NCBI RefSeq assembly: GCF_023502235.1
Contig: NZ_JAMFLY010000003.1
Location: forward strand, 496,001 to 560,000
Origin: Flagellimonas myxillae
GTDB taxonomy: Bacteria; Bacteroidota; Bacteroidia; Flavobacteriales; Flavobacteriaceae
Length of the DNA stretch: 64,000 nucleotides
Direction: 5' to 3'
This document shows positions 54,281 through 56,579 of this stretch, one piece after another (position 1 is the stretch's first letter; the number at the start of each line of letters is the position of its first letter). The notes beneath the pieces were generated by a model, which was given only the letters and a program-made list of their open reading frames with translations, was not told where the DNA came from and did no database searches. Both the position numbers and the translations under genes were made by a program.

Positions 54281-55006
54281 TTACAAGAATTTAAGGAGGT
54301 GCTTGTACGTCATGCCCGATAAAATAGCCAACCCAAAGCTAAGCAAGGTGCCAATGAGGACGTATTCCGTTAGCTTTCGGTTTTTCCCTTTGTTGAGATC
54401 TCCGAAACGGAACACGGATTTGGCCGCAATAAGCAAACCAATGGCGGCCCATTGACCCAAAAGGATAAATCCAAAAACAAAAAGACGTTCCAACATACCT
54501 ATATACTTCCCTGCATTTTTCAAGGACCCTCCCTCCTCGGAATCATCATTGGTGATAACTTCCTTGATATAGGGCGCCAACAACATGCGCATGAGAACCC
54601 CGGAAACGAAAGTGACAAAAACAAGAAAGGTGATCAATAGTAGGCTTTGCTCCCCAAAAATTGAAGTGGGGTCAATTGTGAAGGGTTCAACCCAGTAAAC
54701 GGCACCCATTATTACTACAAGATGAAGAATCTGGTCGAGAGCAAAGAGCCAGCGGTAATTTTTGGGGTTGGTAAGAGCCAATTTGGCAAGATCTATCAAG
54801 AAGTGGGTAGTAATGACAAGTACTACAATGCCCAAGTGTTGAAACTGCAATAATACCAGCAAAAGAAGGAGGTGGATACCCATATGCCAATAGAGGTATT
54901 TGGATTTCCATTTTTTTTGGAGTTTGTTATCAACCCAATGACTGGGTTGAAGCATAAAGTCGCCGATAAAATGGGCTAGGATAAGTTTTAAGGCAAGTAG
55001 AATCAT
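54281..55006 (-). CDS. DUF3307 membrane protein
   Basis: 241 residues with about seven hydrophobic helices. Family head: LALKLILAHFIGDFMLQPSH then WHMGIHLLLLLVLLQF and VLVITTHFLIDLAKL with conserved His/Asp. Function unknown; consistently encoded with SatD-type regulators. The ATG overlaps the satD stop by 4 bases (ATGA). Confidence 0.9.
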   Translation of the reverse strand: MILLALKLILAHFIGDFMLQPSHWVDNKLQKKWKSKYLYWHMGIHLLLLLVLLQFQHLGIVVLVITTHFLIDLAKLALTNPKNYRWLFALDQILHLVVIMGAVYWVEPFTIDPTSIFGEQSLLLITFLVFVTFVSGVLMRMLLAPYIKEVITNDDSEEGGSLKNAGKYIGMLERLFVFGFILLGQWAAIGLLIAAKSVFRFGDLNKGKNRKLTEYVLIGTLLSFGLAILSGMTYKHLLKFL

Positions 55007-55602
55007 GGTTTGGGGAGTTGGGCATTGTAGAATTTCGTCATTTTTTGGAGCGCATCAAAACCTGCTTTAGTCAGTTCTTCACTTATATTGCCCTGTGATT
55101 TATTAAGCAGTTGGGCAAGTTCTTTTTGATTTTTTTTTGGGTTTTTGATAGCATTTTTAACCGTCTGGGCGGTGGCCGGAGGCCAATGGTCCATGGTCAG
55201 TAGCGCAAGCTCTAGGAGTAGGTTCATTTGGTCATCAAAAGCTTTATGGGACGATTTTATACCCAAGTTTTGTCTTTTCAATCCTTCAAAACACTTCCCC
55301 GAATGTACATAGGCCTCCCCGTTGGATTCAGTTACTTTTTCGGCCTGATATCCCTTTTCACCCAAGCCAATGGCAATCCGAACGTCCAAGTTTTTAAATT
55401 GCTTGATACTGGCCTTGACGTACAATGAGGCTTCCAATGCTTTTCCTGGGGTGGTCACCAACTGAAAGCTGTCGCCCCTATAGATTTCCCACTCTTTCGG
55501 TTCCTTTCCATAGTGGTTTAGGGCTTGTTTTAATTCGGGTAGCCAAATAGATGCCTCCTGTTCGGTTGAGTTTTTTATATCGCCGGTAAGTACTGCAATC
55601 AT
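55003..55602 (-). CDS. SatD-family regulator
   Basis: 199 residues. N-terminal SatD domain: MIAVLTGDIKNSTEQEASIW, EIYRGDSFQLV and DVRIAIGLGEKGYQ, resembling a degenerate cyclase-like fold. A C-terminal helix-turn-helix follows at about 160-190: KELAQLLNKSQGNISEELTK. Known only as a putative transcriptional regulator. Upstream lie five palindromes of TATCTG-N8-CAGATA type at 28-bp spacing, probable binding sites for this protein. It is translationally coupled to DUF3307. Confidence 0.88.
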   Translation of the reverse strand: MIAVLTGDIKNSTEQEASIWLPELKQALNHYGKEPKEWEIYRGDSFQLVTTPGKALEASLYVKASIKQFKNLDVRIAIGLGEKGYQAEKVTESNGEAYVHSGKCFEGLKRQNLGIKSSHKAFDDQMNLLLELALLTMDHWPPATAQTVKNAIKNPKKNQKELAQLLNKSQGNISEELTKAGFDALQKMTKFYNAQLPKP

Positions 55603-55618
55603 GTCATGTGGTTTAAAA

Positions 55619-55750
55619 TATCTGTAAAATAGCAGATAACTTAAAATATCTGCTGATTGGCAGATAATCTAAAATATCTGTTGATTGACAGATAATCAAA
55701 AATATCTGTAAAATAGCGGATAATCAAAAATATCGACAAAATAACCGATA
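55619..55750. repeat. Array of five 20-bp palindromes at exact 28-bp spacing
   Basis: Copies start at 55619, 55647, 55675, 55703 and 55731. Pattern TATCTG-N8-CAGATA; copy 4 ends CGGATA and copy 5 is TATCGA...CCGATA. The N8 of copies 1 and 4 is identical (TAAAATAG). Spacers are AT-rich (ATCAAAAA style). The array fills the whole gap between the SatD ATG (17 bp away) and the SH3 gene stop (11 bp away). It looks like an operator array. Confidence 0.9.
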
Positions 55751-55760
55751 AATGCGTGCT

Positions 55761-56579
55761 TTAATTGGGGACAGGTTCATTAAAATTGGGAACCAATTGG
55801 CCATCCATCCAGCTAAGCTCCCTGATTTCCACCGTAGTTTTAGTCCAATTTGTGGATTCATCGTAGAGTTCACCCTGTTCTTTTTTGAAAAGAATTTTAT
55901 CCGGAAGGCCACCTACATCAGTTGGGAAAATAAAGCGTTCGGAATGGAAATACACCCCAGAATCCGTAACCTGTGATAACGATCCAACGGGGGTAAGCTC
56001 TCCGTTGTGCGCAAAAAGATAGGTGCCTCCACCGTCTACACCACAGGCTTCTGCGAAATAATTGATATACAAAATACCGTCAATGCCAGGGATGCCCTTG
56101 TTATCAAAGACTTCAATTTTGAAATCCGTATTGGACAGCGGAACCTTTATTTCAACATAATCCCCATGCTTCACGCTACGGATGTTCAAAAACGTCTTTT
56201 TGCCTTTCTTGGAATAGGCAAAATAGTAGTTTTCACCATTTAGGGTTTTTCTTTCCAACGATATTAGTCCACCAAGTACGTAGCCTGTGACACCATCATC
56301 GTATTTTACTTTGTAAAAGGGAGAGTCAAATCCCTTATAGGGCCAGGAAAACTGGGTCTTTTCCAAAATTTCTATCCATTCCCCGATTTTGAGCAACTCC
56401 AACACTTCGGATTCAGCACTGGGCGTGGACCTTAATTTTGTGTCGTTGCCAAAAACGTAGACTTTTTGCCCTGGTTGAAAAGAACATGCTTCCGTTGGAC
56501 AATAGTAACTGTCCTGGGCATAGTTGAAAGAGAAAGTAAATAGGGTGGTTAGGGCCGTGATCCAAAATTTTGTTTTCAT
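55761..56579 (-). CDS. Secreted SH3b-domain protein
   Basis: 272 residues, signal peptide ALTTLFTFSFNYAQ. SH3b-like domain at about 35-105: GQKVYVFGNDTKLRSTPSAE, VLELLKIGEWIEILEK, YKVKYDDGVTGYVLGGLIS. The rest, with YFAYSKKGKKTFLNIRSV and LYINYFAEACGVDGGGTYLF, resembles no family I know. Probably periplasmic and peptidoglycan- or ligand-binding. Confidence 0.8.
   Translation of the reverse strand: MKTKFWITALTTLFTFSFNYAQDSYYCPTEACSFQPGQKVYVFGNDTKLRSTPSAESEVLELLKIGEWIEILEKTQFSWPYKGFDSPFYKVKYDDGVTGYVLGGLISLERKTLNGENYYFAYSKKGKKTFLNIRSVKHGDYVEIKVPLSNTDFKIEVFDNKGIPGIDGILYINYFAEACGVDGGGTYLFAHNGELTPVGSLSQVTDSGVYFHSERFIFPTDVGGLPDKILFKKEQGELYDESTNWTKTTVEIRELSWMDGQLVPNFNEPVPN

Follow-up and report, generated by a model that had tools for sequence, protein, structure and literature searches.

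Tandem palindromes of fixed period and variable letters upstream of satD in Bacteroidota: a probable operator array of an autoregulator

The satD-like gene of Flagellimonas myxillae and the gene upstream of it (55003–55602 on the minus strand and 55761–56579, respectively) are separated by 158 bp, and five 20-bp palindromes lie between them. This arrangement raises the question of which protein reads the palindromes and to what effect. The reader is very probably the SatD-like protein itself, acting as autoregulator. The DNA analyzed, the window hereafter, is a stretch of 64,000 nucleotides, and the array occupies 55619–55750 of it, that is, 132 of the 158 bp in the gap (Table 1). A sequence-only reading had described five copies of TATCTG-N8-CAGATA spaced by 28 bp: its positions and the exact period hold, and its letters hold for three sites—the other two carry one and three mismatches, respectively, and the latter was missed by a motif search allowing up to two. 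Tandem Repeats Finder reports the array with period 28 and score 137 and gives no second period-28 array in the window; the sequence-only reading had likewise noticed no similar array elsewhere. In the 3.94-Mb assembly, exact TATCTG-N8-CAGATA is confined to the three array sites, and a triple TAT-N14-ATA at exactly 28 bp matches this array only (at three overlapping places, versus none for the reversed pattern used as control); one-mismatch sites in the rest of the genome are single and scattered. The motif alone, at up to two mismatches, is found four times in the window versus 1.88 expected, and 11 of 100 shuffles reach four. Hence, the period and exactness of the array are remarkable, the motif count alone is not. 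A sigma-70-type consensus match (11/12) also lies within the array, at 55685–55714 on the plus strand and directed away from satD; it is probably due to chance because flavobacterial promoters are unlike the sigma-70 type.

Table 1. Features of the satD–DUF3307 region in the window
Feature	Coordinates	Strand	Description and basis
DUF3307 (PF11750) protein	54281..55006	-	All-helical model; overlaps satD by 4 bp
SatD-like protein, 199 aa	55003..55602	-	Cyclase/GGDEF-like domain (about 1–135) and C-terminal HTH, as predicted from ORF, model and folds
Putative HTH helices 159–165 and 170–180 of SatD	55063..55128	-	Model (helices), covariation
Palindrome 5, satD-proximal	55619..55638		Exact TATCTG-N8-CAGATA
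Palindrome 4	55647..55666		Exact TATCTG-N8-CAGATA
Palindrome 3	55675..55694		Exact TATCTG-N8-CAGATA
Second TATTTTTG	55697..55704	-	-102; TA = last TA of palindrome 2
Palindrome 2	55703..55722		One mismatch; ends CGGATA
TATTTTTG, match to TAnnTTTG	55725..55732	-	-130 from ATG; TA = last TA of palindrome 1 in gene direction; consensus match, unmapped promoter
Palindrome 1, satD-distal, degenerate	55731..55750		TATCGA-N8-CCGATA on plus strand; three mismatches by eye; 28 bp from its neighbor

A relative of the SatD-like protein is present in 110 of the 199 genomes sampled from the family, 53 of 60 from the genus, and 100 of 395 from the phylum, and the closest named matches to the window protein are from Allomuricauda, Flagellimonas, and Muricauda. 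The locus set comprises 257 loci from four samples—family (107), genus (29), named (59), and phylum (62)—with exact duplicates removed and near-duplicates retained. The family sample keeps 107 of 110 (L061 has no start; L111 and L112 have no tblastn match); the genus sample takes 29 loci from 53 matches, the window's own apart; the named sample is what remains of 80 loci after removal of 21 duplicates; and 70 of the 102 phylum matches were taken, 62 of them new. One of the 257 loci, with upstream DNA too short, was excluded from the array count. At least two palindromes of the TAT..ATA type, 28 or 29 bp apart, occur upstream of 211 of the 256 relatives, the site detector requiring TAT/ATA-like ends and near-palindromes so that the constancy of these features is partly built in. 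Dinucleotide shuffles yield a mean of 0.5 and a maximum of one array (20 rounds), 1279 control windows of 220 bp taken elsewhere in these loci yield none, and nine alternative spacing pairs yield one to eight loci each versus the 211 at 28/29 bp. The sequence-only reading had staked its proposal on such palindromes being present at other satD genes, and this is what was found. In 46 of the 257 loci, an array was not detected. The satD repeats of L040 and L030 lie outside the TAT..ATA frame of the detector, and L040 is also devoid of the near-invariant Gln170.

The period can also be appreciated without any motif. The mean autocorrelation of 107 upstream regions is 0.446 at 28 bp and 0.390 at 56 bp on a background of approximately 0.32, with a slight rise at 84 bp (0.341), and the lag with the highest value is 28 in 69 of the 107 loci and 29 in another 13. 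Neighboring detected sites are 28 bp apart 354 times and 29 bp apart 63 times; counted per locus, 178 arrays are purely 28 bp, 27 purely 29 bp, and five feature both. The W140–Q170 stretch of SatD has 29 residues instead of the usual 31 in 15 of the 27 purely 29-bp loci—9 keep the usual length—versus one of the 178 purely 28-bp loci. Judged by this comparison, which ignores shared ancestry, the protein may set the period of its array. The number of detected copies varies: two in 52 arrays, three in 117, four in 33, five in 7, and six in 2 (n = 211), and two to four in the 27 arrayed loci of the window's genus. A counting switch, as the sequence-only reading had considered, was rejected because the site number varies between relatives.

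The letters of the half-sites change from genome to genome. In the 211 arrays, the triplet formed by bases 4–6 is CTG in 37; CGG in 22; AAG in 19; TAG in 14; CGT in 12; TAC in 11; TCC in 8; and ATG in 6, with several rarer triplets and others ambiguous at one base at least. TATCTG/CAGATA is, hence, one letter set of many and was rejected as a family-wide signature. Within a locus, the letters are shared: the identity of adjacent copies is 0.81 in the specificity triplets, 0.62 in the spacer, and 0.53 in the linker, and the triplet agreement between loci is 0.33. Across genomes, satD arrays vary in their letters and keep their geometry. Mixed arrays occur as well and may represent a specificity change in progress: L046 and L049 combine TCC- with CAC-type sites in a single 28-bp register, and L155 and L163, relatives in the window's genus, carry adjacent CG and CT sites. 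The repeats might also be an element of the iteron or centromere type, or stem from tandem duplication and be devoid of any regulatory role: such repeats would likewise be tandem and of fixed period, and some homologues are plasmid-borne. But the linkers have diverged between copies beyond the specificity triplets, which argues that the letters are kept by selection; the letters track the SatD helix (below); and the array adjoins satD only, in this genome and in comparison with the control windows. On the grounds of triplet conservation, helix covariation, and restriction to satD, this scarcely credible reading was rejected.

The SatD-like protein is modeled with a pLDDT of 96.5. For residues 1–130, the first 34 Foldseek matches are to cyclases, GGDEF proteins, Cas10-type subunits, and DosP or GTP cyclohydrolase III, with moderate scores and one match at E ≤ 0.001, and VIA gives a Z of 9.2 to 2qv6 (rmsd 2.7, 106 aligned), tied with the next match at 8.9. 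The N-terminal domain, thus, models as a class III nucleotidyl cyclase/GGDEF/palm-like fold, with catalysis being only conjectural. Asp8 is kept in 254 and Asp44 in 255 of the 257 relatives; going by their motif position, both may lie at the cyclase metal site. The C-terminal part is predicted to consist of the helices 142–153, 159–165, 170–180, and 182–194, of which 159–180 is read as an HTH; its matches to HNF-1 are weak (E 0.31–0.68). PF16264 (SatD) is named after the sat operon of Streptococcus mutans. Of 19 proteins in the alignment, namely the window's and 18 relatives, 15 match this profile, with a best E of 1.9e-9; the profile does not match the window protein at E up to 1, nor anything in the window genome at 0.001, a threshold at which the control genomes are silent too. 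The name SatD, therefore, rests on the relatives and is used in the sense of SatD-like. PADLOC gives weak partial matches (E 0.004 over SatD residues 147–177 and 0.028 for DUF3307), and neither NCBIfam nor PADLOC gives a firm one. The literature searched yielded no DNA-binding role for SatD and no account of SatD together with DUF3307, and the search for the sat operon returned only unrelated matches; in the portion of PMC10326533 available, a SatD family protein figures as an annotation only.

The operator letters covary with the recognition helix of SatD. Covariation was assessed on tip pairs with disjoint paths in a tree, itself without support test, built from residues 1–136 only, and 199 columns were ranked by p-values uncorrected for that number of columns. 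The tests per base demanded a 65% majority among half-sites, which kept 188, 199, 168, and 98 of the 211 loci for bases 4–7, respectively. For base 4, residue 175 is the best of the 199 columns (p = 3.6e-7, uncorrected), followed by M137 and L162; both residue and base change in 16 tip pairs, the operator only in 4, the residue only in 13, and neither in 61. Residue 175 is also the best of the 199 columns for base 5 (p = 1.2e-7, uncorrected; 12 both, 1 operator only, 14 residue only, 72 neither), with residue 172 second; in a smaller locus set, residue 172 comes first (p = 1.4e-10). A143, which lies outside the helix, ranks best for base 6, with 172 second and 175 fifth, and for base 7, the five best columns feature no residue of the recognition helix. 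When the triplets are left unfiltered, 172 heads the ranking, with 144 and 147 next and 175 in eighth place. Since other columns (M137 and L162; 144 and 147) rank high, some shared ancestry remains in the signal.

The following residues and letters go together: C4 is found in 85 of the 86 loci with Glu175; A5 in 47 of the 49 with Gln175; C6 in all 24 with Lys or Arg175; and G5 in 50 of the 57 with Ser or Thr172. Asn172 leaves base 5 variable (T 47, A 21, G 7, C 2; n = 77), and a one-residue code for this base was rejected since Asn172 occurs with several letters. Taking residues 171-172-175 together, GNE goes with CT in 26 of 26; SSE with CG in 12 of 12; NTE with CG in 4 of 4; and STE with CG in 14 of 16, the other two being ambiguous at one base. 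SNE (n = 21) is split between CT (12), CG (7), and ambiguous letters (2), and its combination with CG is also met in the relatives L158, L160, and L162 from the window's genus. The 29 further loci of this genus comprise 22 with GNE and CT, 5 with STE and CG, and 2 with GNE in which no array was detected. When letters are predicted from loci of less than 50% N-terminal identity, 0.68, 0.75, and 0.80 are correct for bases 4, 5, and 6, versus a majority-class baseline of 0.55, 0.38, and 0.69—a prediction that is good for base 5 and modest for bases 4 and 6. Residues 169, 171, 172, and 175 are proposed as specificity positions; among them, 171, 172, and 175 would fit a lambda/434-like pattern, in which specificity lies where the recognition helix begins and one turn further along.

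Covariation differs from binding, other columns rank close behind, and single near-match sites exist elsewhere in the genome; another HTH protein might, thus, read the array, with the covariation of SatD due to shared ancestry. We regard this as very unlikely. For both base 4 and base 5, the top column out of 199 on separate tip pairs is a recognition-helix position, and the same residue–letter pairs recur in unlike HTH backgrounds, such as EQSDISK (L010) and NQDAVSK (L089), which both face TATTCC. Furthermore, the triple pattern is found in this genome at satD only, and some plasmid-borne homologues feature palindrome pairs of the same period. That the letters are read by SatD is, hence, a well-supported interpretation, and SatD is very probably the reader because they covary with its recognition helix. 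Together with the palindromes upstream of 211 of 256 relatives, this makes autoregulation by SatD, which the sequence-only reading had found plausible, the best reading.

The sign of regulation may be judged from the position of promoter-like boxes. The flavobacterial sigma-A −7 consensus is given as TAnnTTTG in the part of PMC9723704 at hand. Within at most 170 bp upstream of 174 arrayed loci, this box occurs 153 times (in 105 loci) versus 32 times in one mononucleotide shuffle, and 91 of the 153 boxes begin at unit offset 18, where their TA is the last TA of a palindrome. All sites end in TA, so the fair control is the other strand: TTTG stands at the −7 offset after the palindrome in 92 of 578 sites in the gene direction and in 3 in mirror image. 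These palindrome-fused boxes suggest promoter overlap and repression by SatD, repression being the likelier sign because bound SatD would cover a promoter fused to palindrome ends. A −7-like box downstream of the array, 46 bp from where the last detected site begins, is present in 16 loci, as would suit an upstream activating region from which bound SatD touches RNA polymerase. Activation is unlikely, as the commonest position of the box—91 of 153, and strand-specific—is the one that SatD would cover.

The palindromes might also act as RNA, namely by forming hairpins in the 5′ leader of the satD mRNA and thereby controlling its translation or decay. The array of the window folds better than its shuffles (z −4.8; 0 of 200 as good), both arms of the palindromes change together in the manner of compensatory changes, and one terminator-like match lies within the array. 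But tandem palindromes fold well regardless of their role, the −7-like boxes inside many arrays would place some copies outside the transcript, and no Rfam family matches at gathering score. Hairpins, moreover, require neither common letters nor an exact 28-bp period nor a correlation with the SatD helix. An RNA leader leaves all three unexplained and was rejected as highly improbable.

The partner of SatD, the DUF3307 protein, is probably located in the membrane, and comparison of its model (pLDDT 87.7) with the PDB gives no fold match at E ≤ 0.001. H12, D16, H41, H45, H68, D72, D91, and H95 are invariant in 38 aligned relatives, which hints at a membrane protein with a metal site. As far as the text of PMC8504454 was accessible, DUF3307 serves there as a label of a phage ORF. 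The satD–DUF3307 pair is stable: of 80 named loci, 79 have an ORF of 200–300 aa, which shares 4 or 7 bp with the satD end in 74; 59 of the 62 phylum loci keep a DUF3307-like ORF; and DUF3307 is detected by tblastn in 193 of 195 other loci. The pair is also carried by plasmids of Vibrio, Enterobacter, Pseudomonas, Salinivibrio, Klebsiella, and E. coli, and Pseudoalteromonas plasmids encode a SatD-like protein. Small or mobile plasmids with both proteins are L306, L308, L307, L303, L304, and L302—with transposase or integrase genes near the pair in L302, L304, and L307—and pEC34A (L306) has 3770 bp and five annotated genes, two of which are the pair. On plasmids, satD–DUF3307 looks like an accessory, perhaps defence, module. 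A viral scan gave four distant relatives; tblastn of phages found no match to the window or the Enterobacter protein, and E. coli genomes contain no DNA match to the Enterobacter gene.

Thirteen plasmid and viral loci, one of them (L302) from Bacteroidota, were inspected for palindrome pairs. A script, run without shuffle control and also giving pairs at 25, 26, 31, and 32 bp, identifies L303 (three copies of TTAGCC..GGCTAA), L304, L305, and L299 as loci with clear pairs of 28- or 29-bp spacing. Visual inspection adds L298, L306, and L308, the latter two being close relatives; L302 has a weak pair at 28 bp, and none is visible in L300, L301, L307, L309, and L310. Where such pairs are present, their letters differ from those of Bacteroidota and their period is the same.

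Taken as a whole, the following scheme of the array as SatD's autoregulatory operator is likely in our judgment. A SatD dimer would read each 20-bp palindrome through its C-terminal HTH, dimeric binding being suggested by the palindromic sites. Residues 171, 172, and 175, with 169 just ahead of the helix, would select half-site bases 4–6, and the outer TAT/ATA would be common to all operators. Neighboring dimers 28 bp apart (8/3 turns at 10.5 bp per turn) would each be rotated by approximately one third of a turn, placing every third dimer (84 bp, 8 turns) on the same face of the DNA; the commonest copy number is three, and three 28-bp units make 8 turns. The constant period suggests contacts between neighbors, perhaps via the cyclase-like domains, and its rigidity points to cooperativity. 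By covering the sigma-A promoter, the −7 box of which merges with palindrome ends, bound SatD would repress satD–DUF3307. A nucleotide, or a product made from one, near Asp8/Asp44 would probably alter the assembly and release repression, ligand control being suggested by the predicted cyclase-like fold. A farther-reaching picture, which is rather doubtful, regards satD–DUF3307 as a mobile two-gene nucleotide-signalling module—a cyclase-like sensor or enzyme with a membrane effector, possibly for defence—kept repressed by a SatD filament on a three-fold-wound array, with selection against cross-repression by copies that arrive from outside driving the operators apart into private 'immunity groups'.

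A self-regulating factor with tandem operators is a kind already known, and the satD array is a variant of it. Lambdoid repressors such as those of lambda and 434 bind palindromes at their own promoters through an HTH, with specificity residing in a few residues of the recognition helix that differ between relatives. SatD would resemble them in its own-promoter palindromes and the few specificity residues; they are not known to have a long array of strict period, and SatD adds a cyclase-like domain. NrdR would resemble SatD as a nucleotide-loaded oligomer on repeated boxes with a helix-phase rule, and it differs by its Zn-ribbon and ATP-cone and by a box pair that works best at integer turns, according to the section of PMC12051234 available. 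SatD, by contrast, would occupy two to six sites at 8/3 turns, combines a cyclase-like fold with an HTH, and has letters that vary between genomes; no Zn-ribbon or ATP-cone is found in SatD among the Pfam families listed, which models as a cyclase-like domain with an HTH, and the 28- and 29-bp spacings (354 and 63 times) break the integer-turn rule. For the MerR family, residue–base correlations across the family point to contacts (Prot-DNA-Korr; PMC5045206, in the excerpt available). SatD differs from that case by a fixed-period array at a seemingly single target and by its many letter sets. A literature search for tandem palindromes with helical phase returned only looping by the lac repressor.

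The array is, hence, genuine and general, and probably the operator of an autoregulator with a natural, partly readable recognition code, as read from sequence comparison. The pair is nearly the sole cargo of a 3.8-kb enterobacterial plasmid, and its function is, therefore, worth finding. For an uncharacterised family widespread in Bacteroidota, a DNA-binding role and a target are proposed; some two hundred naturally occurring helix–operator pairs would provide a partly readable recognition code; and the combination of fixed period and free letters suggests that the geometry of assembly is separable from the recognition of sequence.
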